64,000 bases of DNA from Solirubrobacter deserti (GCF_027587175.1 NZ_JAPCID010000003.1:62001-126000), one strand, 5' to 3'. Positions 29,011-50,834 are shown, counted from the stretch's first letter. Notes: a model not told the origin generated them from the letters alone. Numbers and translations: made by a program.

Positions 29011-29056
29011 CAGAGCCCTCTGCCGGACTCGAACCGGCGACCCCTTCCTTACCATG
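29011..29056. repeat. Left attachment site (46-bp tRNA-Thr fragment)
   Basis: These 46 bases are identical to 50,759-50,804 and contain only the 3' half of tRNA-Thr from the anticodon loop onward. Sequence identity stops sharply at both ends. This is the att copy generated by integration. Confidence 0.95.
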
Positions 29057-29420: not shown

Positions 29421-29581
29421 GGGCCGATGTTGTCAGAGTCAAAACTTCCTGCTCAGAGGATGTTTCTGAGTTGTTGCGAATCAGCCCGGCGAAGGTCGAT
29501 GACATCCGGCCCAGGTGCAACGGTCGGGTTCGTCGTCTGTCGATCGACGGGGAGGTGTGGCTGTGGCCCACCTGCGAGTAG
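29417..29581 (+). CDS. Hypothetical 54-residue protein
   Basis: The ATG at 29,417 overlaps the upstream stop. The product contains 'VSELLRISPAKVDDIRPRCNG' and 'RRLSIDGEVWLWPTC', which suggests a small winged-helix or excisionase-like unit. It overlaps the start of the TcpC-like gene by 19 nt, so translation is likely coupled. Function unknown. Confidence 0.45.
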   Translation: MRADVVRVKTSCSEDVSELLRISPAKVDDIRPRCNGRVRRLSIDGEVWLWPTCE

Positions 29582-30459: not shown

Positions 30460-30764
30460 GAACGATGCGCAAGTTGATGACGGGCGCGGCGGTGACCGCG
30501 TGCGCTTGGTCGGTGGCGGCCTCGGCCTATGCCCAGGGCGACGGCGAGAAGGTCGGCGAGAACATCGGCAACCTGCTCGGCGGCTGGGCCCAGAGCCTGT
30601 ACGTCGGCATCGCCGCTGTCGTGGCGCTGATGTTCCTGCTGAACCGGCGGTTCGCGGACTTGGCGGTCTTCATGGTCGCGGCGCTGATCGTGGGCGGCTT
30701 CGTGATGGCCCCGAACGATGTTGCCGGCACGGTCCAGGACATCTGGAAGACGATCACGGGCTGA
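30456..30764 (+). CDS. TcpD-like small membrane protein of the transfer channel
   Basis: The protein is 102 residues. A signal-like N-terminus (MRKLMTGAAVTACAWSVAASAYA) is followed by 'VGENIGNLLGGWAQSLYVGIA' and two membrane segments (about 48-66 and 70-88). Position between TcpC and TcpE and the two-helix form match TcpD/VirB2-like components of Gram-positive ICEs. Overlaps of 4 nt upstream and 1 nt downstream show tight coupling. Confidence 0.65.
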   Translation: MRTMRKLMTGAAVTACAWSVAASAYAQGDGEKVGENIGNLLGGWAQSLYVGIAAVVALMFLLNRRFADLAVFMVAALIVGGFVMAPNDVAGTVQDIWKTITG

Positions 30765-31279
30765 TGTCCGAGCGGTTCGTCATCCGCTCCTACCGGCGCG
30801 TGTTCGAGGTCGACCGGCGCATCTACCGCGTAGACCGCTGGGCGCTTCCCGTGCCCGGCGGCGTGCCGCTGCGGGCGGTCGGCTACTTCGCCGCGACGGT
30901 GCTGCTGGTCGTGCTGCTCGGCGACCTGCTGGCGTTCCTGTCGCCGCCGCTGCGCTACGTGGTGCTGCCGCTCGCGGTCGCGGTGCTCGGCGTCCAGGCC
31001 GCGCCGGATGGACGAACCGCTCATCGCTTCGCCTGGGACTGGCTGCGTTGTCGTGTGCGGGCGCATCGCCGCTCCGCCGGCCGTGTCGTGCCGCTCGACG
31101 GTGAGCCGGTGCGCTGGGACGGCGAGCTGGCGGTGCGCTGGGACGCTGACGCTCCCGCCCTGCATCCTGCGCGCGTGGTGGGGCCGGCGCGCGTGACGTT
31201 CAACGTGCCCACGACGCTCGGCGAGCCGGGCGGCGCCGTCGTGTTGTGCGCGCGGACTGAGATGGAGATCCGGCCATGA
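30764..31279 (+). CDS. TcpE family conjugal transfer protein
   Basis: The protein is 171 residues; its ATG shares a base with the upstream TGA. 'RSYRRVFEVDRRIYRVDRWALPVPGGVPLRAVGYF' is the N-terminal TcpE/PrgI-like pattern. Two adjacent membrane helices (about 43-75) follow, then 'APDGRTAHRFAWDWLRCRVR' and a C-terminal beta region. TcpE is a small membrane subunit working with the VirB4 ATPase next door. Confidence 0.8.
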   Translation: MSERFVIRSYRRVFEVDRRIYRVDRWALPVPGGVPLRAVGYFAATVLLVVLLGDLLAFLSPPLRYVVLPLAVAVLGVQAAPDGRTAHRFAWDWLRCRVRAHRRSAGRVVPLDGEPVRWDGELAVRWDADAPALHPARVVGPARVTFNVPTTLGEPGGAVVLCARTEMEIRP

Positions 31280-33687
31280 CGCGCTTCCCGCTGCGCTACG
31301 CGCATCAGAACATCCTCGTCGGCCAGGGTGACGCGCGGGCCGCGCTGTTTCGCGTGGACACGGTCTCGTATCCGTTCCTGGCGGTCGCGGACAAGCGCGA
31401 GTGGCTGCGGCGGCCGGCGCGGTTCGCGTTCGCGGTCGAGGCCGACTTCTCGCTGTGGCGGGTGTGCCGCGCCTATCCGGCCGCCGGCTACGCCGATCAG
31501 GCGATGGCGCTGCTCGACGAGCGCGGGCAGTCCGCGGCGGCGTGGCGCGCATACCTGAACGGGCACGAGGCGCACCTGCGCGAGCTGCGCTCGTTCACGC
31601 CCGAGGTCTACCTAGCGGTGTCCCTGCCGTCACAACGCTCGGCCGGTGTCGACCGGATGCGCCGGCGGATCGAGGGCCTGTTCGGCGTCGAGCATCCGGT
31701 ACCGATCCCGGCGTCAGACATCGACGCCCTGGTCGCCGCCGAGGAACGCGCCTTCCGCCGCGCCGAAGCGGCACTGCCCGTGCGCCGCGCCACGACGCGC
31801 GAGCTGCAGTGGCTGCTGCGCCGCGCCGCGAGCCGTGGCGTCGCCGAGCCCGCACTCGATGACCACTGGGAGCCGAGCGCGCTGATCGTTGAGACCGCGT
31901 ACGGCCAACCGGCCTACGAGCCGCTCGGCACCGACATCGTGCGTCACTGCAACGCGCCGGTGTTCGAGCAGGACCGCGCCCTGGTGGTTGACGCCGAAGC
32001 GGGCCGCACGCATCAGGCGATGCTCGGGATGGGCGCCTTGCCTGAGGAGTCCGAGTTTCCGGGCGGCGCGGAGCTGCTGTTCTCGCCGCTGGAGGCGCTG
32101 CCGTTCCCGGTCGACGTGGTGCTGCACGCGCGCTGGCTGGGCAACCGGGAGGCGATCTCGCGTGTGCGCCGGCGGATCGTCGACGCCGACGTGGCCTTCT
32201 CTGAGCAGCTGCAGTCCACGCACGGGCCGCTGTCGTACGTGGCCGAGGAGAACCGGGCGCTCGCGCGGGAGCTGGACGCCTACCTGCAGTCGCATGAGCG
32301 GCCGCCGCTGCTCAACGTCGCGATCTCGCTCGCGGTCGGCGCACCGTCGGAGGGGGAGCTGGAGCAGCGCGTCGAGGCACTCGTGCACCGATACGGCACC
32401 GTCGCGCTGCATCGCCCGCTCGGGCTGCAGCCCGCGCTGTTTCTCGATCACCTGCCACGCGCCGATGGCGGCACCGTGCGTGACTACGCCGACGTGCTGA
32501 CGATCGAACAGTTCGGCGCGTTGATGCCGATCGGCACCCACCAGGCCGGCTCCGAGCGCGGCGTGCTGATCGGCCGCACGCTCGCCGGCGGCGCACGACC
32601 TGTCCGCTTTGATGTGACCGAGGCGTCTCGCGCCGGACGGCCGCCGTCGATCCTGCTCGCCGGGACACTTGGGTCCGGGAAGACGATCGCGGCCGAGCTG
32701 CTCGCCTTCCAGGCCGAGCGTCGCGGCTCGCTGGTGGTCGACGTCGATCCCAAGCCCGACCACAACCTCGAAGGCCTGCCGGAGCTCGACGGTCGTGTCC
32801 ATGTGATCGAGCTTTCCGGGGATGACCGCTACCGCGGGCTGCTGGACCCGCTGTCCGTCGCGCCCGAGTCGCTGCGCGAGGACCTCGCGAGCTCCTACCT
32901 GGTCGATCTGCTGCCGCAGTCCCCACCGGCGTGGGAGACGCAGGTCCGCAAGGCCGTCCGCCAGGCGATCGAGTCGCCGGCTCCAAGCTGCCTGCGGGTG
33001 CTGGAGCTGCTGCTCGCTTCATCGGACTCCGATGCCCGGGCGGCCGGTGAGGCGCTGAGCGTGTGGGCCGACTCGGGCGTCGCCCGCCTCGGCTTCGGCG
33101 ACGGTGATCGCGCCCGGGTCGCCGCGCAGCGTCCGGTGACGACAATCAAAGCCCGCGGCCTCTCGCTCCCCGCTCCCGGGATCGCCCGCGGCGACTACGA
33201 CCAGGCCGAGCGGCTCGGCGTCGCGACCCTGAAGCTGATCGCCGCCTACGCGATGCGGCTCGTGGCCGGCGACCGCTCGGTGCACAAGGTCGTGCTCTTC
33301 GACGAGGCCTGGTTCCTGCTCGCGTCCCGCGACGGCCGGCGCCTGATCGACCGGCTCAACCGGCTCGGTCGCGCGGAGAACGCGACGCTGATCCTCGCCA
33401 CCCAGCAGCTCACCGACGTCGGCGAGATCGAGAACCTGATCGGCACGCGGTTCATCTTCGGCCAGGAGACCGCGGCCGAAGCGCGCCGCGCGCTGGAGCT
33501 GCTCGGGCTCGATCCCGAGGATCGCGCGCTGGTCGAGCGCGTCCGTTCCTACCGGCGCGGGCGGTGCCTGATGCGCGACATCGACGATCGCGTCGCCGAG
33601 CTGCAGATCGAGACCGTGCACGAGCACCTGCTGCGGATCCTGGACACCTCCCCAGGCGCCCGCCCGGTCCTGGAGGCCGCGGCATGA
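31276..33687 (+). CDS. VirB4-like conjugation ATPase (TcpF type)
   Basis: The protein is 803 residues. The N-terminal half is the VirB4/TraC-like module. The C-terminal AAA_10-type domain has Walker A 'GTLGSGKT' (463-470), 'VVDVDPKPDHN' just after it, Walker B 'VVLFDEAW' (D676/E677) and the 'ILATQQLTDVGEIENLIGTRFIFGQE' sensor region. VirB4 ATPases energise assembly of the transfer channel at the cytoplasmic membrane. It overlaps both neighbours by 4 nt, so the transfer genes form one unit. Confidence 0.93.
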   Translation: MTRFPLRYAHQNILVGQGDARAALFRVDTVSYPFLAVADKREWLRRPARFAFAVEADFSLWRVCRAYPAAGYADQAMALLDERGQSAAAWRAYLNGHEAHLRELRSFTPEVYLAVSLPSQRSAGVDRMRRRIEGLFGVEHPVPIPASDIDALVAAEERAFRRAEAALPVRRATTRELQWLLRRAASRGVAEPALDDHWEPSALIVETAYGQPAYEPLGTDIVRHCNAPVFEQDRALVVDAEAGRTHQAMLGMGALPEESEFPGGAELLFSPLEALPFPVDVVLHARWLGNREAISRVRRRIVDADVAFSEQLQSTHGPLSYVAEENRALARELDAYLQSHERPPLLNVAISLAVGAPSEGELEQRVEALVHRYGTVALHRPLGLQPALFLDHLPRADGGTVRDYADVLTIEQFGALMPIGTHQAGSERGVLIGRTLAGGARPVRFDVTEASRAGRPPSILLAGTLGSGKTIAAELLAFQAERRGSLVVDVDPKPDHNLEGLPELDGRVHVIELSGDDRYRGLLDPLSVAPESLREDLASSYLVDLLPQSPPAWETQVRKAVRQAIESPAPSCLRVLELLLASSDSDARAAGEALSVWADSGVARLGFGDGDRARVAAQRPVTTIKARGLSLPAPGIARGDYDQAERLGVATLKLIAAYAMRLVAGDRSVHKVVLFDEAWFLLASRDGRRLIDRLNRLGRAENATLILATQQLTDVGEIENLIGTRFIFGQETAAEARRALELLGLDPEDRALVERVRSYRRGRCLMRDIDDRVAELQIETVHEHLLRILDTSPGARPVLEAAA

Positions 33688-37257: not shown

Positions 37258-37485
37258 CTACGCCGCGACCTTGACGTACGTGGCGGTCAGGTCGGAGGGC
37301 TCGGGGATCGGCTCGCCGGCTTGCTGCAGGCCTTCGAGGTGGAAGGCGATCACGTCGTGCATCTCGCGCTCGACGGTCTCTCGGGTCTTGCCGGCGGCCA
37401 CGCACCCGGGCAGGTCGGGCACGTAGGCGGAGAACCCGGCTTCGTCGTTGCCTTCGATCACGATCAGGTACTGGCGTTCGGTCAT
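37258..37485 (-). CDS. hicB: HicB family antitoxin
   Basis: The protein is 75 residues. 'YLIVIEGNDEAGFSAYVPDLPGCVAAGKTRETVEREMHDVIAFHLEGL' (in parts) is the HicB fold with the degenerate RNase H-like core, lacking a long DNA-binding tail. Its ATG overlaps the expected stop of hicA (ATGA). Because of a 1-nt change in hicA the hicB frame is open upstream, so a HicA-HicB fusion could also be made. Confidence 0.85.
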   Translation of the reverse strand: MTERQYLIVIEGNDEAGFSAYVPDLPGCVAAGKTRETVEREMHDVIAFHLEGLQQAGEPIPEPSDLTATYVKVAA

Positions 37486-37686
37486 CGGTCCTCGTCCTGG
37501 AGTCCTGCCTGTTTGATGATGCTCGCCCAGGGTCTTCGGATGCAAGGAGTCCGACGGCTTGCCCGCGATCGTGACCAAGCCTGGCCGCTCGGGGTGCCGG
37601 AACTGCCGATGGCTCCCGCGCGTGCGGGAGAGCTGCCACCCGGCGGCCTCGATGCGCCTGATCGCCTCTCGGACCTTCACCGGCAT
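37482..37686 (-). pseudogene. hicA: hicA toxin gene with frameshift
   Basis: From the ATG at 37,686 the frame reads 'MPVKVREAIRRIEAAGWQLS', 'RTRGSHRQFRHPERPGLVTI' and 'AGKPSDSLHPKTL', a normal HicA mRNA-interferase with its catalytic His. After 'KTL' the frame is shifted by one extra base in a run of three C (37,526-37,528, plus strand). Removing one base restores 'ASIIKQAGLQDEDR' and a TGA overlapping the hicB ATG, exactly as in ordinary hicAB pairs. As written, hicA reads on into hicB. This is either a real inactivating mutation or a sequencing error. Confidence 0.85.
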
Positions 37687-37755: not shown

Positions 37756-37790
37756 CAGCGGATGGTCCGCTGTCAACCGGCGCAGCCGGT
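37756..37790. repeat. Two adjacent perfect hairpins
   Basis: CAGCGGA/TCCGCTG (loop TGG, 37,756-37,772) and ACCGGC/GCCGGT (loop GCA, 37,776-37,790) are separated by 3 nt. They lie in the 345-nt non-coding gap 37,687-38,031 between the hicA start and the HNH-like gene, just beyond the transfer operon. They may be part of an origin of transfer, a single-strand origin or terminators. The rest of the gap shows no coding pattern. Confidence 0.4.
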
Positions 37791-38031
37791 CCTCACCTGC
37801 ACAAGAGCGGAGGCGGCCGGCGGGGTCAAGATGAGCCCGTCAGGGCCGAGCGCAGCGAGCTGCGAAGCAGTCGTCTTGACGCCGACGGACGCCGTAGCTA
37901 CCTGTCGCGCCTGTCGGATGGCGCCGCAGCGAACGGATCACGGCGGTGCTCTGCTCACTACGATGCCAACGGCCGCGTCGCCGCTGCCCCGCGGTTCGAA
38001 TCTCTTGATCGCCAGGGCCTACATTGAGTGG

Positions 38032-38808
38032 GTGGCTTCGAAGGCGTGCATCTTCTGTGGCGGGACGCCCCTCACCCGCGAGCACCTGTGGCCGGACTGG
38101 CTGCGACGTGAGCTGGAGATCAAGGCTGGTTTCGACTGGCGGATGCAGCAGGAGTCGGACGGGACGACGACGCGAGACCAAGCGTGGACTGCCCCGCCGT
38201 TCAACCAGCAGGTCAAGGCGGTCTGCGCGCGATGCAACAACGGGTGGATGTCCGAGATCGAGTCCGCCGCGAAGCCGATCCTTCAAGCGCTCGTCCGGGC
38301 GGAAGGTCGGCAGCTGCATCGGCGGATGCAGAGGACCCTCGCGACCTGGGCCTTCTTGAAAGCGTGCATCTTCGACGAGCTCCATCCGGCGGAGCGAACC
38401 GTGCCGGAGGCGCACCGTCAATTTCTCTACGAGCACAAGGAGCCGCCACCCGACGGCGTCTGGATCCGCGTGGCGACCTACGAGGCGCGGGATATCGGCC
38501 ATTACGCGTATCAGGGGATACGGCTAGGGAAGCGTGGCGAGCCGGAGCCCGCCGAAGTCACCGTGTACTTCGTCACGATGACCGCCGTTGCGCTCGTCCT
38601 TCAGGTGACCGGAAGTCTGCTCGACGAGTGGCGTTTCAAGGATGTTCCGTACCCGGACGAATTCGCGGTTGCGGAGATTTGGCCGAGTTCTGCTCGTGTG
38701 GACTTCAAGCAACGGAATCTGCTGACGCATGAGACGCTGATCGGGTTCACGAAGGCGCTCTACAACGTCATGGGCAGCCTGACTGCGCCCGTGCCGAGGC
38801 CTCTCTAG
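38032..38808 (+). CDS. HNH-nuclease-like zinc protein
   Basis: The protein is 258 residues from the GTG at 38,032; an ATG at 37,960 would add a low-quality extension. It contains 'ACIFCGGTPLTREHLWPDWL' (C-x2-C plus the H of an HNH/His-Me finger) and 'VCARCNNGWMSEIESAAKPIL' (second C-x2-C and the Asn). The remaining part is alpha/beta with 'TLATWAFLKACIFDE'. Such HNH-like proteins are frequent in mobile accessory regions. Nuclease activity is not proven. The gene has lower GC than the transfer operon. Confidence 0.65.
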   Translation: MASKACIFCGGTPLTREHLWPDWLRRELEIKAGFDWRMQQESDGTTTRDQAWTAPPFNQQVKAVCARCNNGWMSEIESAAKPILQALVRAEGRQLHRRMQRTLATWAFLKACIFDELHPAERTVPEAHRQFLYEHKEPPPDGVWIRVATYEARDIGHYAYQGIRLGKRGEPEPAEVTVYFVTMTAVALVLQVTGSLLDEWRFKDVPYPDEFAVAEIWPSSARVDFKQRNLLTHETLIGFTKALYNVMGSLTAPVPRPL

Positions 38809-39183: not shown

Positions 39184-40026
39184 CTACATCGCGGCCGCGT
39201 CAGCGTCGACGATGTCCTCCGAAACAATTTCGGCCTCGGTGAACTCTTCCGCCGAGGTATCCACGATTTGGGGGTTCAGGCCCCGGTGCTCAGCTGCTTG
39301 GGGCGCACCACAAGCAGGACAAGGCGCGTCAGCGTCTCCGAGGTCGCGTACGTTCTTCCACATCGTGCCGAAGCTCTCGATGATTGTGCGAACGTCACGG
39401 AGAGCGACCAGCCAGTCGGCGTCTGCTATTAGCCTCGGCTCGCCATTGGACACGCGAGCACGCTCTCGAATCAGGTGTGCGTCGATCGCAGCGACTGCAC
39501 CTCGAGCGTCCCACAGGGTCGCGATCATCCGTTGAAAGTCGGCGTTCGTCGCCTTGTCGCGTTCTGCCTGACGGGCCCGCTGACGAGCATCACTGTGTTG
39601 CTGCTTTAGGACCTTCTCCGCCTCGCGAACTGCGCGTCGCGACCCGGGCCCAGCCTTCGTAAGCTGCAGCACGAGTCGATTCACTGTCGGATCGCTCAAG
39701 GCCTCAACGATCCTGCGCGCCTCTTCCTCGGCGGAAGGTTTGGCGTTGCGGGTCTTTCGAGTCGCTGCGCGCTCTGCTACCTCCTTCTGCCGGTCCTGAT
39801 CGTCGACTCGACGCCAGCGAACGGTTTTTGGACGGTTCCGCAGAGCTGCGGTCCAGCCATCTTCGTTCTCGGGCTCGATGATCCCGTCCTGCCACATGCG
39901 AATGCGCTCGGGCGTTATGCGGCTCGAGCTGAACCCGGTTGCCGCCTTGATCTCGGTCTCGGTGGCGGCGCCGCTGCCGATCACCTCGAGGATCGCTTCC
40001 TTTGTGCTTGGTCTTGGCTCTGCCAT
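39184..40026 (-). CDS. Coiled-coil protein with HTH-like N-terminus and C-x2-C motif
   Basis: The protein is 280 residues from the ATG at 40,026. The N-terminus ('STKEAILEVIGSGAATETEIKAATGFSSSRITPERIRMW') looks like a winged helix of phage/MTase-linked type. A long charged helical region (about 85-190, 'AERAATRKTRNAKPSAEEEARRI' part) follows, then 'DAPCPACGAPQAAEHRG' near 245. It is the last gene of the five-gene operon, 64 nt after the endonuclease-like gene. A regulatory or specificity role for the restriction genes is conceivable. The family is not recognised. Confidence 0.6.
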   Translation of the reverse strand: MAEPRPSTKEAILEVIGSGAATETEIKAATGFSSSRITPERIRMWQDGIIEPENEDGWTAALRNRPKTVRWRRVDDQDRQKEVAERAATRKTRNAKPSAEEEARRIVEALSDPTVNRLVLQLTKAGPGSRRAVREAEKVLKQQHSDARQRARQAERDKATNADFQRMIATLWDARGAVAAIDAHLIRERARVSNGEPRLIADADWLVALRDVRTIIESFGTMWKNVRDLGDADAPCPACGAPQAAEHRGLNPQIVDTSAEEFTEAEIVSEDIVDADAAAM

Positions 40027-40090
40027 GGCGCTTGAGAGGAACCCGTCGCTGGCGCGCCCTCCGAAGCGAGGACGCACCAGCGGGCTGGGC

Positions 40091-40813
40091 CTAGGCCCCG
40101 AGCGCCTTCCGACCGTTCGATTCGCCCGATCCCAGCGTCGGAACTGGCAGAGTGGCGGACACCTCAATGAGCGCCCGCTCGATCGCAGCGCGCATCGGCG
40201 CGGCAAGCGCCGGAGACCGCTCGGCCGCCATCTCGAAGTCGACCTCGAGCGCCTCGGCGAGCTTTCGCATCTTCACGAGATGCGGCCCGATGAACTCACG
40301 CAGCACGACTTCCTCGTGAGTCGAGACGTAGATGCCATCCTTGATGGTGTTGCCGTTCCGGTACACCTTGCCGCGCACGAGGATGAGCTTGTCGGCGTCC
40401 AGCTTCTTCTGCACGCGACCGCGATCGCCGTTGGTCGCGGTGAGGTTCCAGATCAGCGAGTGGCACTTCTTCCAGATCGCGGCGTGAACCTCGTCATGCT
40501 CGATCTCGGCGGGAGTCGGGGCTTCGGTCACAACGACACGAGTCAGTTCCTCACGAGAGGAACTCGTGGCAGGGCTGAAGCGGTCGTCGTTCTCGCCGAT
40601 GTTGGAAACGTGCTTCGTCTTGATCTCGGCGTACACCTTGTCCGCGCACACGGACAGGTCGGGACCGCCGTCCTCGTTGGCCAGACCGGACTTGACGAGA
40701 ACGTCCTTGAAGCCTTCCTCCACGGCAGCGGCGAAGTCAAGGTCGGCAGCGTGCTTCGCTTCGGCGATCTCCGCAGCCGTGCGAGGCGTTTCGACGGTGC
40801 GCACTGGCACCAC
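40091..40813 (-). CDS. Putative type II restriction endonuclease, Eco47II/Sau96I-like PD-(D/E)XK
   Basis: The protein is 240 residues (GTG start at 40,813). Its clearest feature is 'GGPDLSVCADKVYAEIKTKH': P51-D52, then E63-x-K65, a textbook PD-(D/E)XK site. The 'AEIKTKH' wording followed by 'VSN' closely resembles the 'AEIKNKHNT' element of Eco47II-type enzymes, which cut GGWCC/GGNCC-type sites. It is encoded directly downstream (111 nt) of a C5-cytosine methyltransferase, as expected for a type II pair. The specificity is an inference from this partial motif likeness. Confidence 0.65.
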   Translation of the reverse strand: MVPVRTVETPRTAAEIAEAKHAADLDFAAAVEEGFKDVLVKSGLANEDGGPDLSVCADKVYAEIKTKHVSNIGENDDRFSPATSSSREELTRVVVTEAPTPAEIEHDEVHAAIWKKCHSLIWNLTATNGDRGRVQKKLDADKLILVRGKVYRNGNTIKDGIYVSTHEEVVLREFIGPHLVKMRKLAEALEVDFEMAAERSPALAAPMRAAIERALIEVSATLPVPTLGSGESNGRKALGA

Positions 40814-40924
40814 ACTCCTTTGCTTCGGAGAAATCAGGCCGATCCGCGGCGAGAAGTCAGGAAGCAGTCGATTGAAAGCGAAACCCTAGCACCTGGCTGA
40901 GACGTTCTCTAGCGGCATTGCCTA

Positions 40925-42229
40925 TTACCGCCGGACCGACTCCTCGGGCTGGTCAACTTGGTTCACATGCGGAAGCTGCACGATGTCAGGCGCGCCAATG
41001 GGTTCGATCGGCGTAGGGCGAGAACGCTCGGCTCGCTCCTTCGCGCCCGGCCCCTTCCCCTTGCCAGGATGATCGTCGTGGGGACGAGCGTGTTTCTTCC
41101 GAATCCAGCCCGGGACCGGCTGCGGCGGCAGAGGAGGAGGCATGCCGGCTCGTGCGCCGGGGATGAGGGTGAGCTCGCCAGACGGCGCCTTGTTCCCGAG
41201 GTAGTCGAGCGCGAGGCGACCGAGTAGTTCTCCGATGGCGGAAGGGACAGCATTGCCTAGCTGCCGATGAGCGGAAGTGTGGCTTCCTACGACCGTCACG
41301 TCGGACGGGAAGGTCTGAAGCCGCTGGAGTTCGCTTCGGGCCAATCTACGAGAATCCCAGTGGAACGGACCCGTCGATGGGCCGGGTGTCGCCGGCAGCG
41401 TCCACGATGGCATCGCCTTCGCCAACTTCAGAAGAAAGCTCCAATAGCGCGTCCTATAGCCGAAGAGCGATTCGCCTCCGCCCCGTCGCGTGTGCCACAA
41501 GTAGTTGTGGCCTTCCGGAATCGTGGGCAGAAGCTCCGCCCACTTTCCGGACGGCATGAGTTCCTCCACGTCATCCGGGATTTCATCCCCCAGGGCGTCC
41601 CAGGCTGTGCGGTAGGGATTCCGTCGGCCGGGTCCATGTGTGGGCTCGGGAAGCTGAAGCTCCGCGCCATCGATGCACGCGTACAGAAACAGCCGATCTC
41701 GACGCTGCGGAACGCCGTAGTCGGCCGAATTGAGTTCGAGAGCGCGCAGCACATAATTTGTGCCTCGTGTGTGATTTAGCGCGGCGAGGCGGCTCCGGAT
41801 CAGAGTGACCGCTTCGTCGCGATCGCGGTAAGCGAAGCCTCGAACGTTCTCCAGAAGCAGAATGCGCGGAAGCGTCTCCTCAAGAACGTCAAGAAGCATC
41901 CGGAGCGTGTCGGATCTCGGATCGGCGAGTCTACGGGCGTCCCGGTACCACCAGCCGGCTTTCGAGAAGGGCTGACAAGGCGGCCCCGCGGCGAGGACGT
42001 CGATCGCGCCTTCCTGAAGGGAGAACTCGTCGAGGAGCTCGCTTGGAGCGTAGCTCGCAATGTCTGGCCGCTCGGCAAGTCTCCAATCTCGACTCGCGCC
42101 GATGGTCGCACGTGCGTCCTTGTCGCGCTCGACACACGCCACGATGCGGAATCCCGCTGCCTCAAGGCCGTAGTCGAGACCACCCGCGCCCGTGTAAAGA
42201 GATAGCGCGGTGCGCGCGAGCTGAGGCAT
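40925..42229 (-). CDS. dcm: DNA (cytosine-5) methyltransferase
   Basis: The protein is 434 residues. The ordered C5 motifs are present: I 'LYTGAGGLDYGLEAAGF' (11-27), IV 'AGPPCQPFS' with nucleophile C85, VI 'LLLENVRGFA' (E127-N-V), VIII 'QRRDRLFLY', a target-recognition region containing 'LPATPGPSTGPFHWD', and X 'QLGNAVPSAIGELLG'. A Pro/basic tail (residues about 365-434) is extra. It methylates cytosine at C5, probably protecting the host from the endonuclease encoded next. It is the third gene of a five-gene operon. Confidence 0.92.
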   Translation of the reverse strand: MPQLARTALSLYTGAGGLDYGLEAAGFRIVACVERDKDARATIGASRDWRLAERPDIASYAPSELLDEFSLQEGAIDVLAAGPPCQPFSKAGWWYRDARRLADPRSDTLRMLLDVLEETLPRILLLENVRGFAYRDRDEAVTLIRSRLAALNHTRGTNYVLRALELNSADYGVPQRRDRLFLYACIDGAELQLPEPTHGPGRRNPYRTAWDALGDEIPDDVEELMPSGKWAELLPTIPEGHNYLWHTRRGGGESLFGYRTRYWSFLLKLAKAMPSWTLPATPGPSTGPFHWDSRRLARSELQRLQTFPSDVTVVGSHTSAHRQLGNAVPSAIGELLGRLALDYLGNKAPSGELTLIPGARAGMPPPLPPQPVPGWIRKKHARPHDDHPGKGKGPGAKERAERSRPTPIEPIGAPDIVQLPHVNQVDQPEESVRR

Positions 42230-42400
42230 TCTCAGACAGCCTACCTTCGCCGCCGGAAGCTACGGCCCCGACATGCCGGAGGCAACCCCAATTGGATTGG
42301 GCTGTGGCCGCCGACGGATGCGAGAAGTCGAGCGACTCACGATGACCGTCGGCCAGCGTCCCCTACGGCCGGGGCCGCGGGCGGAGGACCGGCGACTGAC

Positions 42401-43408
42401 TCAGTCGATGGGCAACTTGTCGAGCGATCTCTCGATCCAGTCCCTTAGACGAGCGATCAGTGCGCCAGGCAAATCTTCAACTGTGAGCAGGGAGGCAATT
42501 CGGAGCCGATCAAATGGGATGCTGGGCGAGGAGGCGACGTCGTGCCATCTATGAAGCTCCGAGTCCACTCGTGATGGCGTGTGCGGGAACGCGAGCGCAG
42601 CGATCGGCTCGACGGAGAATTGGATCACCTCACGCCATTTGCCGACTTGCATGCTCTTCGCCGCCCAGTCTTTCCCGATCCCGCACTGGCAAAGGACGAC
42701 GAGTTGCCCTGGCGTGGGCTGTTCCGGCGTGTCGTCCGCAAACGATCGCCAGGCCACGACGTCGAGCGTGTAGTCCTTCGCAGCGGGCGACACGTTTCGC
42801 ATCGCCCCCGGCAACTCACCCAGTCGCTTCGACAAACGTCGTGCCTTGGCGACGAAGTCCTCGATCGGCTCGCCATCCTTCTGCGGCCACCCGAACCGGT
42901 ATCCCGTTCCCCCGACGTAGCGAGCCAGGGCGCAAGCCACAATCTCCTCGAATAGCCAGGCCGGCTCGTGGAACGGAATATCAAGCCCAGACTCGAGGCG
43001 CGCGCCAACGAGTGCCAAGAAGGCGTAAAGCGGGTCGTCGTCCCAGAGGCGCAACAGCTCGATCCCGCCGCCGTCGACAGAAAGCGGGTAGGCGCCCCCG
43101 ACCACCTGCGCCCTGAAGCTCAGCTCTCGGAGAACATCGTCGGCTCGCCTGGAGGAGGGGGAGTCTCCAGCCGCCGCTGCGGCGCGAATGTCCTCACGTA
43201 GGGACCGCTCGTCGAACTCCATTTCGTCGTCAGTGAGCTGTTCCTGCTCAAGACGAAGCTCATCCGGCTCGTCGTCTCCGAAAGCGTTGGCAAAGAGCTG
43301 AGCGAGTTGCCCGGTGCCCATTCCGAGCGTGTCGCCGAACATGATCTCGAGCTCAGCCCAGTCGGCCAGCTCCTCAACTGTCGGATCTCCGGCTGGCAGC
43401 TCTATCAC
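42401..43408 (-). CDS. Unrecognised protein with nuclease-like acidic/Lys motif
   Basis: The protein is 335 residues. The N-terminal 80 residues are acidic and helical. The middle has 'VVGGAYPLSVDGGGIELL' and 'WLFEEIVACALARYVGGTGYRFGWP'; near the C-terminus 'YTLDVVAW' (D216) is followed by 'LVVLCQCGIGKDW' (Q241, K246). An E...D...(Q/E)-x-K order like this could be a divergent PD-(D/E)XK fold, but the spacing is not classical. It overlaps the ParB-like gene by 4 nt, so the two proteins are made together. Function is not assigned. Confidence 0.6.
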   Translation of the reverse strand: MIELPAGDPTVEELADWAELEIMFGDTLGMGTGQLAQLFANAFGDDEPDELRLEQEQLTDDEMEFDERSLREDIRAAAAAGDSPSSRRADDVLRELSFRAQVVGGAYPLSVDGGGIELLRLWDDDPLYAFLALVGARLESGLDIPFHEPAWLFEEIVACALARYVGGTGYRFGWPQKDGEPIEDFVAKARRLSKRLGELPGAMRNVSPAAKDYTLDVVAWRSFADDTPEQPTPGQLVVLCQCGIGKDWAAKSMQVGKWREVIQFSVEPIAALAFPHTPSRVDSELHRWHDVASSPSIPFDRLRIASLLTVEDLPGALIARLRDWIERSLDKLPID

Positions 43409-44601
43409 GTCTTGGGAGCCCCAGAAGCGGCGCTGTCTTTCTCAACGGTCCCAGTCGCTGGCGAGGTCTCGACGCTGTCAGCGCGGGGTTCGCCCAGGGT
43501 GCCGACGATCGCGTCCAGCACGCGCGCGACGTCGCGGGCGCGTGAGATGACCTCGGCGTCGCCAACAAAATTGAAGGCCAATCCGTTGGCTCGCACGAGC
43601 TCTGTGCGCGCCTTGTTGAGTGACGTTTGGATGCTGCTCTTGTCTGTATCGCTGAGAGCGAGGGCCCCCGCAAAGTCCCGCTCTTCTTGCAAAAGCACTA
43701 CTGCGTCGGGCGCCCGGAGGACCCGACCTAGATCGGTCAAGCGGCGAGAGTCCGTGAATAGCGGCTTGACATGCGCGCCGTCTCCGAATAGCCAGCTGGC
43801 GAGTTCGGCCACGCGCGGCTCGTTTCCGGGCGGAACCGGTGCTGGGTCGTACGCATCGAATTCGCGGTAGTCCGGGACCCCGACGAACTCGCGGATGCCT
43901 TGAGTCTGTAGGGCGCGATAGAAGACGCCGAAGAAACGCACGGCTCGCTCGACATCCTGGCCGTCATCTTGCGCTTGCCGTAGCGAGGCGTAGGTGATGA
44001 CCTGGCGCCGCACCGCGTCTTGGCGGCTGCCGATCTTTCGTGCCGCGTCTTTGAACGAGGCGCCGCCAGCCACCATCTCGGTCACGAACCGAGCCTTGGC
44101 TTCAGCGGTCCATTGCTCGATGCCCGTGACGTGCCGGAAGCCGAGATAGTCCTCGACTTCGCCACGCTCAGCGTACTGCTGAGTGGGAACGATCTCGAGC
44201 CGATCGCGTACCGCTTCGGCTCGCTCTCGAAGACCTCTCCAGTGTGCACTCCTCTCCACGTGGTTCTGCGCGTCCTCATCGAGCAGCAGCTTTAGCGTCG
44301 CGAGACGACGATTGCCCTCGACTACGACGCGCGCATGGCCGTCATGCTGAGGCCCTTCCGCGTCCTCGTTCGACATGTAGTCCGGCTTGAGAACGAGCAA
44401 GGGCTCCTGCGGAAAGAACCCTTTTTCAAGCATGGATTCGGCGAGTTCGTCGAGGTCGTAGCGCTTGTCGAAGAACTGGATGAGCGCGAACTGGTCGTCG
44501 CCGTCCAGATCTAGCGGAAGTCGGGGGTTTTTGGGATCAAGCAGGAGGTCACCGATAGGGCGACCCACTAGCTGCTTGATGGTTGGTCCGTCGCCGGGCA
44601 T
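43405..44601 (-). CDS. ParB/sulfiredoxin-fold protein
   Basis: The protein is 398 residues. The N-terminal ParB-like domain reads 'LLDPKNPRLPLD', 'ELAESMLEKGFFPQEPLLVL' and 'VVVEGNRRLATLKLLLDE' (residues about 92-109, the ParB box II equivalent). It is followed by helical segments with 'FKDAARKIGSRQDAVRRQVITYASLRQ', an HTH-like stretch. ParB-fold enzymes bind CTP or nucleotides and are used in partitioning and in several defence systems. It leads the minus-strand operon; its stop overlaps the next ATG. Confidence 0.8.
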   Translation of the reverse strand: MPGDGPTIKQLVGRPIGDLLLDPKNPRLPLDLDGDDQFALIQFFDKRYDLDELAESMLEKGFFPQEPLLVLKPDYMSNEDAEGPQHDGHARVVVEGNRRLATLKLLLDEDAQNHVERSAHWRGLRERAEAVRDRLEIVPTQQYAERGEVEDYLGFRHVTGIEQWTAEAKARFVTEMVAGGASFKDAARKIGSRQDAVRRQVITYASLRQAQDDGQDVERAVRFFGVFYRALQTQGIREFVGVPDYREFDAYDPAPVPPGNEPRVAELASWLFGDGAHVKPLFTDSRRLTDLGRVLRAPDAVVLLQEERDFAGALALSDTDKSSIQTSLNKARTELVRANGLAFNFVGDAEVISRARDVARVLDAIVGTLGEPRADSVETSPATGTVEKDSAASGAPKT

Positions 44602-44670: not shown

Positions 44671-45033
44671 TTAGGGCTCCAGGCTGGTCCGACTTTCGCG
44701 GGCGTCCAAAGCGCTGCGGGTCTCCGAACGGATCCACGCTAAATAGGGCGAGTTGCCGGCGATCACCGGCAGCGCGGTCACGTTCGGAACTTCGTACGGA
44801 TGTCGCGGTACAACGAACTCGACAATGGCTGCCACGAGTGCCTGCCGGGTGCGCAGAAAGGCCCGAGCCTCGTTCGCCTGGTGCACCTCGCCTTTCCAAC
44901 GGTAGATGCTGGTCACTGGGTGAACCACGTGCGCAGACGAGGCGAGGCCCGCGGTTACCAGGTCGCGACAGAGATCCGTCAACCATTCGGGATCGGGCGC
45001 GGTGACTATCACCTCGCAAAGATCGTGCGTCAT
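44671..45033 (-). CDS. cutA: CutA1-family protein
   Basis: The protein is 120 residues, normal for CutA. 'CEVIVTAPDPEWLTDLCRDLVTAGLASSAHV' and 'SIYRWKGEVHQANEARAFLRTR' match the conserved trimer core (the 'WxGE' signature is seen as W-K-G-E), and 'HPYEVPNVTALPVIAGNSPYLAWI' is the typical C-terminal block. CutA1 is a very stable trimer linked to divalent-cation tolerance and, in some contexts, signalling. It overlaps the XRE regulator stop by 4 nt, an uncommon pairing on a mobile element. Confidence 0.9.
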   Translation of the reverse strand: MTHDLCEVIVTAPDPEWLTDLCRDLVTAGLASSAHVVHPVTSIYRWKGEVHQANEARAFLRTRQALVAAIVEFVVPRHPYEVPNVTALPVIAGNSPYLAWIRSETRSALDARESRTSLEP

Positions 45034-45668
45034 GTTGCAGCTCGTTCGGTTCGCTCGCGCACGACGCCTTGCGCCTCTTCGCGGGTTCGCGCCAAGGCGG
45101 CTCGGCCGCTGACGACGGGTCCGTCATAGGAGAGGCCGACCCAGCGGCCGTGCGCGTGTTCGCCTTGGGCGTGCAGCACGAAGTACATGGTGCCCTTTGA
45201 CCGCACGTTGCCGTCGGCCGCTGCGTAGTAGCCCATAAGGATCTGACCGTCCCAGAGGCGGAGTTCGCCGCGCCAGAGATAGCCCCCGCGCTCGTTCTCG
45301 GTGCTGCGCTCGAGCGCTTCGATCTGAATCGTTGAGCCGTGTTGCGACAGGCCGACTGGCTGGGTGGCGATGACTTCCTGGCCGTCGTTGAAGGTCTGCC
45401 AGGCGGCCCACCAGGTGCCTTCGAGCTTGATGCGGTCGCCAGGGGCCCCAGCCAGCTCGTCGAGCGAGACGCCGAGCGCCTGGGCGAGCCGCTGAGCGAC
45501 GCCGAGGACCGGCTGCTGCTCGCCGTTCTCGTACCGCGTGATCTGCCGAGTGTGGATGCCGACCGCGGCTGCGAGACCGGCCTGCGAGAGACCGGCTTCC
45601 TGGCGCAGGCGCTTGATGATCTCGCCGAAGTGGGGCTCGGTTTGGCTCGCTTCCACGGGTGAGGTCAT
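45030..45668 (-). CDS. XRE-family repressor with C-terminal sensing domain
   Basis: The protein is 212 residues. The HTH_XRE domain is at about 15-70 ('IIKRLRQEAGLSQAGLAAAVGIHTRQITRYENGEQQP' region). The C-terminal beta-rich domain ('LEGTWWAAWQTFNDGQEVIATQPV', 'YLWRGELRLWDGQILMGYYAA', 'GTMYFVLHAQGEHAHGRWVGLSYDG') is found in several actinobacterial repressors of unknown input. It is divergent from the replication/transfer module, and symmetric half-sites lie in the shared promoter region, so it is the likely master repressor of the ICE. Confidence 0.85.
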   Translation of the reverse strand: MTSPVEASQTEPHFGEIIKRLRQEAGLSQAGLAAAVGIHTRQITRYENGEQQPVLGVAQRLAQALGVSLDELAGAPGDRIKLEGTWWAAWQTFNDGQEVIATQPVGLSQHGSTIQIEALERSTENERGGYLWRGELRLWDGQILMGYYAAADGNVRSKGTMYFVLHAQGEHAHGRWVGLSYDGPVVSGRAALARTREEAQGVVRERTERAAT

Positions 45669-46150: not shown

Positions 46151-47524
46151 ATGTGGCGCCGGTCGTCAGTGGTCCACGTCGTCGATGAACTGGCCCGCGC
46201 GCAGCGGCGTGAGCGCTGGAGGGTCGAGGTCGAGGCGCTGCTCGTCGGGCTCGCGTGGGCCGTGTGGAGCGTGCGCCTGGAACTCGCCCTGGTGCTCGTG
46301 CTCGCGGTAATGCAGCGGCTCGTCGGTGGTGTGCTCGGCTGGATCGCTGTCGTGGCTTGCGTCGCGGGTGTGGTGGCGATCCCGAGGACGCGGCGTTTCC
46401 TGGGGCATCTGCTGCGGGCGATGCATGTCCGGCGGGCGTGGGCACGGGCGACGATCGACGCGGGTGTCGCGGCGGGTCCGTTCCGGTGTCCGGGGGTGTG
46501 GTCGGTCTCGCGGGTGCCTGCGGGTGACGTGCTCGACGTGCATGTGCGGCGTGGGCAGTCGGTCGCTGACCTGGACGCTCGCTCCGAGCACCTGGCGGCG
46601 TGCCTGCGTGCGCGCGAGGTTCGGGTGCTGCGTGATCGGCGGAATGCGGCGCGGGCGAGCGTGCTCGTGATCCGGCGTGATCCGTTCGAGGACGCGGCGC
46701 CTGTGACATGGCCATCGGTCACGACGGAGCGGCTGTCGCTGTGGGAGCCGGTGCCGCTCGGCGTGGACGAGCAGGGCGAGCACGTGGCGGTCTCGCTGGT
46801 CGAGCGCAATGTGCTGATCGGCGGCGAGCCCGGCGCTGGCAAGTCCGCGGCGCTCTCGGTTGTGATCGCTGCGGCCACGCTCGATCCGGAGACGCGCGTG
46901 TGGCTGCTGGACGGCAAGCTCGTGGAGCTGGCGGCGTGGGCGCCCCTCGCTCGGAAGGTCGCCGGCCCGAGCGGCGACGACGCGCTCGCGCTCTTGCGCG
47001 AAGTGCGGGACGTCATGGACGAGCGCTACCGCGAGCTGCTCGCCAAGGGGCAACGCAAGGTCCGTCGCGGCGACGGGCTGCCGCTGCACCTGGTGGTGTG
47101 CGACGAGCTGGCGTTCTACCTGACGGTGCCGGAGAGGGCCGTGCAGAAGGAATTCGCCGAGCTGCTGCGCGACCTGGTGGCCCGCGGCCGAGCGGCCGGC
47201 GTGATCGTCTGCGCCGCCACGCAGAAGCCCGGTGCCGACGTGGTGCCCTCGGCGCTGCGGGACCTGTTCGGGTTCCGGTTGGCGATGCGGTGCACGACGC
47301 CGCAGGCCTCGGACACGATTCTCGGGCAGGGCTGGGCCTCGGCCGGCGCAGACGCGTCCGACATCCCGGGCGCGCAGCGGGGCGTGGGGTATCTGCTCGC
47401 GGACGGCGATCGGCCGGTGCGGATGCGCGGCTACTACCTCAGTGACGAGGACGTGTCGGCGATCGCCGAGCGCGCGTCGGCTGCGCGGGCGGACAAGTGG
47501 CTCGCGGAGGGTGTGAGCGCATGA
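46151..47524 (+). CDS. FtsK/SpoIIIE-type DNA translocase (TraB/TcpA-like)
   Basis: The protein is 457 residues. Two membrane helices (about 35-75) precede a soluble part with Walker A 'GGEPGAGKSAAL', 'VWLLDGKLVELAAW', Walker B 'LHLVVCDELAFYL', and 'VIVCAATQKPGADVVPSALRDLFGFRLAMRC', the FtsK sensor region. In AICEs this protein (TraSA) alone moves double-stranded DNA; in T4SS-type ICEs a relative (TcpA) is the coupling protein. Both options are open here because a T4SS is also present. It overlaps rep by 4 nt. Confidence 0.9.
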   Translation: MWRRSSVVHVVDELARAQRRERWRVEVEALLVGLAWAVWSVRLELALVLVLAVMQRLVGGVLGWIAVVACVAGVVAIPRTRRFLGHLLRAMHVRRAWARATIDAGVAAGPFRCPGVWSVSRVPAGDVLDVHVRRGQSVADLDARSEHLAACLRAREVRVLRDRRNAARASVLVIRRDPFEDAAPVTWPSVTTERLSLWEPVPLGVDEQGEHVAVSLVERNVLIGGEPGAGKSAALSVVIAAATLDPETRVWLLDGKLVELAAWAPLARKVAGPSGDDALALLREVRDVMDERYRELLAKGQRKVRRGDGLPLHLVVCDELAFYLTVPERAVQKEFAELLRDLVARGRAAGVIVCAATQKPGADVVPSALRDLFGFRLAMRCTTPQASDTILGQGWASAGADASDIPGAQRGVGYLLADGDRPVRMRGYYLSDEDVSAIAERASAARADKWLAEGVSA

Positions 47525-48906
47525 CGGCCGTAGCGAGTCCGCTGCTGCAGGACGTGTTCGCGCGCGCGGCCGACCCGAACGAGTGCGAGCGCTTCGAGCG
47601 CCAGCTCAAGTCGGCGGGGTACTGCCGGCGGCCGGTGCGGCTGAAGGGCGGCGTGACGTCGATCGACTCGCAGACGGGCGAGGTCGTCGGCCGCTACTCG
47701 ACCGACGATGAGCCGGACGGGACGCTGCTCAAGTGCTGCGGCAACCGGCGCGAGGCCGTGTGCCCGTCGTGCGCTGAGGTCTACCGCGGTGACGCCTACC
47801 AGCTCGTCGTGAGCGGGATGCGCGGCGGCAAAGGCGTCCCCGAGACCGTCATCGAGCATCCGATGGTGTTCCTGACCCTCACGGCCCCGAGCTTCGGGCC
47901 GGTGCACTCGCGCCGCGTGATCGACGGCCAGGCGCGGCGCTGCCGCCCTCGGCGCGACGGCGGGATCTGCCCGCACGGTGTCCCGCTTGGCTGTTCGCTC
48001 GTCCATGACGAAGACGACGAGCGCCTCGGCGAGCCGCTGTGCACGGAGTGCTTCGAGTACGAGCATGCGGTGCTGTGGAACGCGCTGGCGCCCGAGCTGT
48101 GGCGGCGCACGGCGATCCAGTTCCCGCGCGAGCTCGCCCGGCTCACGGGCGTCAGCCAGAACAAGCTAAGCGCGCGCGTGTCCTACGTGAAAGTGGCCGA
48201 ATTCCAGCGCCGTGGCGCGCTGCATTTCCACTGCGTGCTGCGCCTGGACGTCCTGGACGATGACGGCGAGATCGTTGCGCCACCCGCGCGGTTCACCGAG
48301 CAGCTGCTCGTCGACGCGGCCACCGCGGCGGCCCAGCACGCGTCGTTCCTCTCCCCCGGCTCGCCAGCGCATCCCGGCCTGCCGATCGGTTGGGGCGCGC
48401 AGATCGAGGCGCGCCCGCTGGACGCGGACACGTCGAAGCTGACGGCGGGCTACATCGCCAAGTACGCGACCAAGTCGACCGAGGTCGTCGGCGGGCTGCT
48501 CTACCGGCTCGAGCCCGGCGACATCGACCGCCTGAAGGTCCGCCCGCACGTGCAGCGGTTGGTCAAGACGGCGTGGGACCTCGCGCTGCGCCGCGAGCTG
48601 CACCCGCTCAAGTTGCGCCGCTGGGCGCACCAGCTCGGGTTTCGTGGGCACTGCTTCACCAAGAGCCGCCGCTACTCCACGACCTTCACCGCGCTGCGCC
48701 AGGCTCGCCATGAACACGTGCTGCGCCGCCAGGGCCAGCTGCGCGACCGCAGCCGTGACGTGCGCTACTGGCGCTACAGCGGCGCGGGTTACAGGACCCC
48801 GGGCGATGCGTGGCTCGCCGAGTCCGGTCGCAGGCGGGCGGTACGGCAGCGGCGGGTGGCGCGCGAGGAACTTCGGTCCAGTCCAGTCGAAGGGAGACGA
48901 AGGTGA
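47521..48906 (+). CDS. Rolling-circle replication initiator (RepSA-like, HUH)
   Basis: The protein is 461 residues. An N-terminal zinc region ('LKCCGNRREAVCPSCAEVYR') is followed by 'FLTLTAPSFGPVHSRR', a second Cys/His cluster, and the HUH site 'GALHFHCVLRLD' (H235, H237). Later comes 'LTAGYIAKYATKSTE', which carries the Lys/Tyr region with the probable nicking Tyr Y455... rather, a Tyr in this block. RepSA proteins replicate excised AICEs by rolling circle. With no other relaxase in the element, it may also start transfer. Confidence 0.87.
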   Translation: MTAVASPLLQDVFARAADPNECERFERQLKSAGYCRRPVRLKGGVTSIDSQTGEVVGRYSTDDEPDGTLLKCCGNRREAVCPSCAEVYRGDAYQLVVSGMRGGKGVPETVIEHPMVFLTLTAPSFGPVHSRRVIDGQARRCRPRRDGGICPHGVPLGCSLVHDEDDERLGEPLCTECFEYEHAVLWNALAPELWRRTAIQFPRELARLTGVSQNKLSARVSYVKVAEFQRRGALHFHCVLRLDVLDDDGEIVAPPARFTEQLLVDAATAAAQHASFLSPGSPAHPGLPIGWGAQIEARPLDADTSKLTAGYIAKYATKSTEVVGGLLYRLEPGDIDRLKVRPHVQRLVKTAWDLALRRELHPLKLRRWAHQLGFRGHCFTKSRRYSTTFTALRQARHEHVLRRQGQLRDRSRDVRYWRYSGAGYRTPGDAWLAESGRRRAVRQRRVAREELRSSPVEGRRR

Positions 48907-49121: not shown

Positions 49122-49558
49122 CACCGCGGGCCGGCGCCCCTGAGCAGATCCGCGCGCTGGCGACGGTCACTCTCGACGCTCAGGCGCTCGACGAGCTCGG
49201 GCCGCAGACACTGGATCGGCTGGCCGATCTCGTTGCGCAGCGGCTGGCGGAGCGGCGGGCGGCCGGTGAGGCCCCGCTGCTGACCACGAACGACGTCGCC
49301 GAGATCGCCGGTGTGCACGCGCAGACGGTGCGACGGGCGATCCAGACGGGCGCGCTGCAGGTTGTGGGCTACGTCGGCCAGCGCCCGCGGATGCGGCGCG
49401 AGGACGTTGAAGCCTGGATCGCGAGCAACGAGCCTCCGGACGCGGCGGCGATCCCAGCGGGGCAGCCGCGGCCGGTGCGACGGCGTGCGGGGCGGCAGAG
49501 CTATCCGCGTCCGCTTGGTGACGTGATCCGGACGCTGGGTGTGGGAGCGGAGCGGTGA
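49118..49558 (+). CDS. Second HTH protein next to integrase
   Basis: The protein is 146 residues. A helical N-terminus (ALDELGPQTLDRLADLVAQRL) precedes an excisionase-type HTH ('LLTTNDVAEIAGVHAQTVRRAIQTGALQVVGYVGQRP', about 53-90) and a basic tail ('RPVRRRAGRQSYPRPLG'). It overlaps both xis and int by 4 nt. It may act with Xis in directionality control or regulate the module. Confidence 0.7.
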   Translation: MTPRAGAPEQIRALATVTLDAQALDELGPQTLDRLADLVAQRLAERRAAGEAPLLTTNDVAEIAGVHAQTVRRAIQTGALQVVGYVGQRPRMRREDVEAWIASNEPPDAAAIPAGQPRPVRRRAGRQSYPRPLGDVIRTLGVGAER

Positions 49559-50706
49559 GCCTGCACCGAGTCAAGCGCGAGGACGGCTCGGTCGTTTGGC
49601 GGGTGCGTTGGCGTGACGGCGGACGTGGTTCGGCGGAGCGCTCGCGAACGTTCACGCGCAAGTCGGACGCGCAGCACTTCGAGGACGAGCTGCGGCGGCG
49701 CCGACGGCTCGGTGAGCTGGGGCTGCTGATCGCGTCCAAGGAGACGCTTGACGAGTACGTGACCGGGACGTGGGCGCCGACGCATTTGCCGACGCTCGCG
49801 CCGGCGACGGCGAAGGTCTACGGGTCGTTGTACGACAAGCACATCTCGCCGTTCCTCGGACACCTGAAGCTGATCGAGATCACGCCGGAGGCGATCTCGC
49901 ACTGGCAGGCGGAGCGGCTCTCAGACGGCGCCGGTCGGGTTTCGATCCTGAAGGCGCTGTCGGTGCTGGGTTCGATCCTGCAGCGGGCGGTCGAGTCGGA
50001 GCGGCTCGCGCGCAACCCTGCTCGGCTGGTGCGCAAGGTCCGCCGGCCGCCGAAGGGCGAGGTCCGGCCGCTCGCGCCCAAGACCGTCGAGGCGATGCGC
50101 GCGGCGAGCACGCATCGGGACGCGACGCTGATCTCGGTCCTGGCCTACGCGGGATTGCGGCCGCAGGAGGCGCTCGCGCTGCGCTGGCGCGACATCGGCG
50201 AGCGGACGACCGTCATCAACGCGTCCAAGACCGGGCAGCGCCGCAACGTGCGGCTGCTCGAACCGCTCCGCGAGGACCTGGACGCGTGGCGCAAGGCGCA
50301 GCCCAACGTGCGCGAGGACGGGCTCGTGTTCCCCGGCGAGGACGGCGAGCGCTGGGCGCCGGACGCCTACAAGAGCTGGGCGCGCAAGAAGCCGCGCGGT
50401 CGCCGCAAGCCGGGCGAGAAGCAGCGCAGCGGCAGCCCGGGACCGTTCGCGCGGGCGGCGATCAAGGCCGGCGTTCCGGAGGCCACGCCGTACACGCTGC
50501 GGCACAGCTTCTGCTCGCTGCTGCTGCACGAGGGGCGCTCGGTGGTCTACGTCGCGCGCCAGCTCGGCCACGACGCGGCGCTCACTTTGGGCACCTACGG
50601 GCATGTGATCGACGAGCTCGACGAGGCGCCGAGAATCGGCGCTGAAGAGGCGATCCGGGCGGCCCGTGTGTCACGGGTGCGGGATGAGGCGAAATCTGAT
50701 GCTTGA
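49555..50706 (+). CDS. int: Tyrosine site-specific integrase
   Basis: The protein is 383 residues (GTG start). It has an N-terminal arm-binding region, a SAM-like core-binding domain (about 65-150) and a catalytic domain with R202 ('AGLRPQEALALRW'), R316 and H317 ('TPYTLRHSF'; the usual first His of HxxR is Tyr313), H339 ('LGHDAAL') and nucleophile Y348 ('TYGHV'). It lies 52 nt from the right attachment core and would recombine the 46-bp cores in tRNA-Thr. Arrangement rep-xis-int is the standard AICE order. Confidence 0.94.
   Translation: MSLHRVKREDGSVVWRVRWRDGGRGSAERSRTFTRKSDAQHFEDELRRRRRLGELGLLIASKETLDEYVTGTWAPTHLPTLAPATAKVYGSLYDKHISPFLGHLKLIEITPEAISHWQAERLSDGAGRVSILKALSVLGSILQRAVESERLARNPARLVRKVRRPPKGEVRPLAPKTVEAMRAASTHRDATLISVLAYAGLRPQEALALRWRDIGERTTVINASKTGQRRNVRLLEPLREDLDAWRKAQPNVREDGLVFPGEDGERWAPDAYKSWARKKPRGRRKPGEKQRSGSPGPFARAAIKAGVPEATPYTLRHSFCSLLLHEGRSVVYVARQLGHDAALTLGTYGHVIDELDEAPRIGAEEAIRAARVSRVRDEAKSDA

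Positions 50707-50758: not shown

Positions 50759-50834
<76 letters not shown>

Follow-up and report, generated by a model that had tools for sequence, protein, structure and literature searches.

Nucleoside triphosphate (NTP)-binding domains of the ParB superfamily occur in several restriction or modification systems. GmrSD/BrxU, SspE and DndB are type IV or phosphorothioate systems whose effectors are of HNH or other types (PMC12839542, PMC12373910), and the discoverers of PD-lambda-5 called it a compacted restriction-modification plus abortive infection (RM+Abi) system (PMC9519451). Here, we describe a locus from Solirubrobacter deserti, contained in a 64,000-nucleotide stretch of DNA (GCF_027587175.1 NZ_JAPCID010000003.1:62001-126000; hereafter the window, from whose first letter all positions are counted), in which genes for a ParB-like protein, a 335-amino-acid (aa) predicted nuclease and a C5-cytosine DNA methyltransferase open an operon of five intact minus-strand genes (44601-39184, from the open reading frames, ORFs, of the window). 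We propose, with a probability of roughly three in four, that these three genes form an RM system in which the ParB-like protein and the nuclease are the two subunits of the restriction enzyme and the methyltransferase is exchangeable. The operon genes are:

43405-44601, minus strand: ParB-like protein, 398 aa; Srx/ParB-fold NTP-binding domain at about residues 10-160, helix-turn-helix (HTH) domain at about 148-300, C-terminal helical region at about 320-370; Box II-like EGNRR at residues 95-99
42401-43408, minus strand: predicted nuclease, 335 aa, GTG start; winged helix at about residues 6-120, PD-(D/E)XK domain at about 121-324; candidate catalytic residues E154, D216, Q241 and K251
40925-42229, minus strand: C5-cytosine DNA methyltransferase, 434 aa (Pfam DNA_methylase, E 7.5e-38)
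40091-40813, minus strand: protein of unknown function, 240 aa; a single PD-x10-EIK motif, no detected relatives
39184-40026, minus strand: coiled-coil protein, 280 aa; a single CPAC motif and a possible winged helix at the N-terminus, relatives not detected

An earlier interpretation from the sequence alone (the sequence-only reading) had listed five minus-strand genes in this order, with an overlap between the first two and short gaps thereafter, and this layout is borne out: the start of the 335-aa gene and the stop of the ParB-like gene share a 4-bp GTGA overlap, and the gaps that follow measure 171, 111 and 64 bp. The start of the 280-aa gene was taken as the ATG at 40026, the mechanical ORF beginning with a TTG at 40206.

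The closest described relative is PD-lambda-5, with which the locus shares a ParB-like N-terminal domain (PADLOC E 1.1e-14, residues 16-184; hhalign probability 97.9%) beside a DNA methyltransferase. The match, however, covers only positions 9-168 of the 466 in the PD-Lambda-5_A profile, and the two systems differ in their effectors: PD-lambda-5 has a single fusion protein of some 470 aa, in which the ParB domain is followed by an unrelated C-terminal part, whereas the effector here is a separate PD-(D/E)XK protein. Furthermore, the PD-lambda-5 example examined (L172) carries a D12 adenine methyltransferase as opposed to the C5 enzyme of the window, and the PD-Lambda-5_B model is not among the best 25 PADLOC matches of the latter, for which only generic C5 models are found (DruM2, DrmMII, MTase_II). 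The likeness to GmrSD/BrxU, SspE and DndB is limited to the ParB-superfamily NTP-binding domain (BrxU, Z 4.1; SspE, Z 5.1), since these systems have no base methyltransferase partner of such kind; none of the five proteins has a Pfam match to the DUF262 or HNH/DUF1524 domains of GmrSD. Core genes of DISARM, BREX and Druantia (helicase, PglZ, BrxC, Drm/Dru) were not detected by PADLOC among nine neighboring proteins.

With type II RM systems the locus has in common a methyltransferase next to a protein predicted to have a restriction-endonuclease fold, and we take the two enzymes to be cognate; it departs from them in that restriction, judged by gene linkage, would also depend on a further protein, which is ParB-like and has an NTP-binding fold, and in that no PADLOC REase_II model is matched. 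The modeled ParB fold suggests possible use of NTP, which would separate the system from type II. Neither the nuclease nor the trio is named in PADLOC, Pfam, NCBIfam or PHROGs, although the ParB-like and 335-aa proteins are both present in PHROGs as families of unknown function. No description of a system of ParB, PD-(D/E)XK nuclease and methyltransferase was found in searches of the open literature, an earlier listing being possible in subscription papers, in supplementary tables (e.g., the hotspot tables of PMC9122126) or in REBASE.

The ParB-like protein and its nuclease partner

The 335-aa protein, which the sequence-only reading had regarded as a non-standard extra partner, is the best supported nuclease among the operon proteins. 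In its AlphaFold model (predicted local distance difference test score, pLDDT, 88), residues 6-120 resemble winged helices and residues 121-324 form a PD-(D/E)XK domain, for which BspD6I, MspJI, FokI and AspBHI are the top structure matches (Z 6.0-7.1), MspJI being the best match in Foldseek. The candidate catalytic residues are conserved at 78-98% in 155 sequences, the aspartate, glutamine and lysine at 96-98%. Taken together, the middling Z values, the conserved residues and the MspJI match are the reason for predicting a nuclease. The family has no match in Pfam, NCBIfam or PADLOC, including the REase_II models of the latter, and a sequence search of the PDB was negative. The resemblance to MspJI/AspBHI and FokI/BspD6I lies in the fold of the C-terminal nuclease domain, while the N-terminal winged helix and the ParB partner set the present protein apart. 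MspJI and AspBHI cut modified DNA; unlike them, the 335-aa protein is accompanied by a methyltransferase of its own.

The model of the ParB-like protein (pLDDT 89) matches KorB, Noc and ParB across the NTP-binding and HTH domains, the match to KorB extending over 201 residues, HTH included (Z 10.5), and Box II (GxxR) is kept as EGNRR, which is 99-100% conserved in 155 sequences. Beyond this two-domain architecture, the protein differs from KorB, Noc and ParB in its nuclease partner, in an altered Box III, and in lacking a ParA partner: a Pfam scan found no ParA among the window operon genes, and the ParA-binding motif, (L/F/I)G(K/R)G(L/F/I) (PMC12704722), is missing from the ParB-like sequence on inspection. 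Apart from the matches named, structure searches gave neither protein a full-length counterpart.

Evidence for a joint function comes from the linkage of the two genes. Relatives of the ParB-like protein were collected from phages, plasmids, species genomes (best 80 of at least 534) and viral contigs (best 80 of 149); because loci were picked by resemblance to this protein, the frequencies given here describe the sampled set, in which phage loci are redundant. A 335-aa profile applied to the 160-170 loci fetched detected a family member directly downstream of the ParB-like gene and on the same strand in 168 pairs, with a median overlap of 4 bp. Seven ParB cases remained unpaired: either the contig ended, or the overlap was larger (one case), or the ParB protein came from another family. 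Separate searches of 396 Actinomycetota genomes with ParB and nuclease profiles converged on the same two (G000 and G272), at adjacent positions; three more weak ParB matches in these genomes concern the N-terminal domain alone, in ORFs of 462-530 aa. With one phage nuclease as query, nine viral loci were retrieved, all on contigs already within the ParB set. Pairwise distances of ParB and nuclease correlate at 0.90 (65 non-redundant loci), compared with 0.62 for ParB and C5 methyltransferase. The two restriction genes are thus obligately paired and co-inherited. No fused ParB-nuclease protein was observed among 170 loci; for PDC-M38A (715 aa), the comparison covers the ParB part, which matches. 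Two loci hold two ParB-nuclease pairs each, on opposite strands in a gut phage contig (L003) and on the same strand in Cellulomonas (L071).

Methyltransferase partners and the proposed mechanism

The window methyltransferase has every core motif of a C5 enzyme (GAGG, PPCQ, ENV, QRRDR and GNA). With local profiles built on Pfam-checked seeds, we found a methyltransferase within 1.5 kb of the pair in 140 of 166 cases (116 C5, 13 D12 and 11 N6/N4), and in 120 of the 139 pairs flanked by 1.5 kb or more of sequence on each side. For comparison, the C5 background is about 40 matches per 100 actinobacterial genomes; methyltransferase neighbors of the pair far exceed chance. Eleven further pairs have a C5 gene farther off, as in the C5/HATPase/Z1/DUF4420 operon of L019. 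The core of ParB, nuclease and methyltransferase recurs in well over 100 loci, i.e., beyond chance, and gene order and strand differ between loci. The conserved unit is one of three genes and not, as had been suggested, of five. Whether the ParB-335-aa pair recurs beside different methyltransferases had been named as a check, and it does so with C5, D12 and N6/N4 enzymes; on a quick ParB tree, with methyltransferase classes assigned by motif, the class changes at least 8 times, the least possible number being 2.

These neighborhoods bear on the notion that mobile elements use the pair for regulation or partitioning and that it travels with methyltransferases by chance. The ParB-like fold and the carriage on phages, plasmids and conjugative elements would fit such a role; the absence of a parA-like gene and a ParA-binding motif from the window operon, the obligate nuclease partner and the excess of methyltransferase neighbors do not, and we regard it as highly improbable. 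An obligate pair with an exchangeable methyltransferase is instead the pattern of a two-subunit restriction enzyme.

In the locus set, the C5 genes closest to that of the window (37-51% identity; L046, L030, L053, L077 and L090) all lie beside a pair. Vsr, a mismatch-repair protein, is a companion expected of a true 5-methylcytosine system, and its gene adjoins the C5 gene in a family-level relative from the Solirubrobacteraceae (L046/L183), a likeness to type II systems. The idea that the recognition domain of the methyltransferase is conserved family-wide was rejected, this region varying over 65 non-redundant loci.

On the two-subunit model, the ParB-like subunit would bind DNA via its HTH domain and NTP-binding ParB fold and would recruit or activate the winged-helix PD-(D/E)XK nuclease, which in turn would cut DNA that does not carry the mark of the neighboring methyltransferase (5-methylcytosine in the window, N6 or N4 in relatives). 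Sequence, models and statistics support the folds, the pairing, the co-inheritance and the exchange of methyltransferases; that the enzyme cleaves DNA, that methylation protects from it, that the two proteins form a complex and that phages or plasmids are restricted is inferred. By analogy with ParB and KorB, loading might be NTP-gated and clamp-like, which is speculative. A more far-reaching version, which we put forward tentatively and consider possible rather than probable, is a new class of NTP-dependent restriction enzymes, in which a ParB-like clamp would load on unmethylated sites, as ParB and KorB do with cytidine triphosphate (CTP), slide, and license the nuclease. If true, the locus would encode the first restriction system to work through a ParB clamp, related ParB modules such as PD-lambda-5 using other effectors.

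Several observations weigh against the two-subunit restriction enzyme. No methyltransferase was found in the fetched stretch for 15 of 166 pairs, although for nine of them this stretch extends 1.5 kb or more to either side. The nuclease fold reaches Z values of only 6-7 and a best Foldseek E of 2.7e-3, such that several weak matches and the conserved residues carry the fold assignment. Moreover, the usual (D/E/Q)-x-K spacing is lost, Q241 being followed by C-G and the conserved lysine coming ten residues on (Q-x9-K). Finally, ENxxR, the Box III consensus of the ParB-CTPase fold, is replaced by R-H-[IV]-[TN]-G, which makes nucleotide binding by the ParB-like protein uncertain. Box III is frequently absent or divergent in orphan ParB proteins (PMC12704722).

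The relationship to PD-lambda-5 raises another interpretation, namely an abortive, toxin-like module in which the pair would damage host and phage DNA upon a phage signal, with the methyltransferase as antidote. It draws on the kinship of the ParB N-terminal domain with PD-lambda-5_A, on the RM+Abi designation of that system, and on two loci in which a PD-lambda-5-like protein adjoins the pair. We nevertheless judge it unlikely, since the nuclease is of restriction-enzyme type, the varied methyltransferase classes are typical of sequence-based restriction, and the PD-lambda-5_A protein in L172 shows no detectable relationship to the 335-aa nuclease. In the two loci just mentioned (L067:11203-13212 and L080:1039-2583), the PD-lambda-5-like ParB proteins have a different C-terminal part and stand beside pair and methyltransferase, as if two effector arms shared one methylase.

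The downstream genes and the mobile element

The sequence-only reading had combined the methyltransferase with the 240-aa protein, taken as the endonuclease, into a normal restriction pair with two odd partners, so that the ParB-like and 335-aa proteins would be a separate or added module. The PD-x10-EIK motif of the 240-aa protein and the position of its gene right after the methyltransferase speak for an ordinary type II pair of this kind. The motif, however, stands alone, and a pattern of its type arises in 3.4% of shuffles; relatives of the protein were not detected in any other fetched locus, in 396 actinobacterial genomes, or in the viral contig, phage and plasmid sets; and L030, L053 and L090 are bare three-gene units, in which a window-like C5 gene adjoins the ParB-nuclease pair and a 240-aa gene is lacking. 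This arrangement is accordingly rather improbable, and the locus is better described as an RM system of methyltransferase plus ParB-like protein and 335-aa nuclease, followed by two odd genes. What stands of the earlier interpretation is a restriction-like system that is not named as a whole by PADLOC, Pfam, NCBIfam or PHROGs; its grouping of all five genes into one unit and the roles it gave them are not supported.

The 280-aa protein likewise has no detected relatives in any other fetched locus, in 199 actinobacterial genomes, or among viral contigs and plasmids, and the 240-aa and 280-aa proteins are accessory or unrelated. One E. coli plasmid match in these searches (E 0.1) was dropped because its context is unrelated. 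An Eco47II-like identity of the 240-aa protein, suggested by its motif, has no library match and was not adopted.

Upstream, on the same strand, lie two genes that the sequence-only reading had left out of the operon:

44671-45033, minus strand: CutA1-like protein, 120 aa, whose gene immediately precedes that of the ParB-like protein and may or may not belong to the system
45030-45668, minus strand: XRE-family regulator with a C-terminal domain, 212 aa, overlapping the CutA1-like gene

The regulator could possibly control the operon. Its C-terminal domain is of an unusual kind, which is encoded a second time in the same genome (G000:C36) and once in a further actinobacterium.

The operon is low-GC cargo of an integrative conjugative element, and the earlier proposal of a conjugative element with lower GC is confirmed on both counts: the GC content is about 0.64 over roughly 37.5-45.7 kb compared with 0.71-0.73, and the element is delimited by 46-bp att-like direct repeats and encodes the functions listed here (type IV secretion system, T4SS).

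29011-50804: integrative conjugative element, 21.8 kb; repeats at 29011-29056 and 50759-50804, the second within tRNA-Thr (50761-50834)
29515-33687: T4SS genes
46151-47524: FtsK/Tra
47497-48906: RepSA (pSAM2-type replicase)
49555-50706: integrase

The element also encodes TcpC and a T4SS ATPase, so that transfer genes of the TcpC type (Tn916-like) occur together with replication by a pSAM2-type RepSA. A single ORF (37258-37686, minus strand) where the low-GC cargo borders on its surroundings encodes a HicA toxin domain and, after it, a HicB-like antitoxin domain. An HNH_5-like gene (37762-38808, plus strand) is convergent with the operon; it has a weak Pfam match and matches PHROG 38451, of unknown function (E 3e-11).

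Distribution and significance

The ParB-like family is encoded in at least 534 stretches of species genomes, and the trio family occurs in 140 of 5,426 E. coli genomes, the laboratory strain E. coli W having the complete unit with the nuclease labeled hypothetical. In the temperate phage Wphi the trio corresponds to gp98-gp96-mth and is located at the gpA-gpQ site of P2-like phages, a defence hotspot (PMC9122126), which speaks for the proposed RM role; in the passages of that paper considered here, the validated systems are others than the trio. Judged from sequence, the ParB-nuclease-methyltransferase trio appears to be a widespread, uncharacterised DNA-defence unit.

A large family thus resides at a known phage defence hotspot, yet its nuclease is still annotated as 'hypothetical'. 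The proposed system would connect methylation-based restriction with the nucleotide-switch fold of ParB and would provide a common frame for PD-lambda-5, with clamp loading as a possible mechanism for sensing unmodified DNA. For annotation, an orphan 'ParB' followed by a hypothetical protein of 300-340 aa near a methyltransferase probably represents an RM system.
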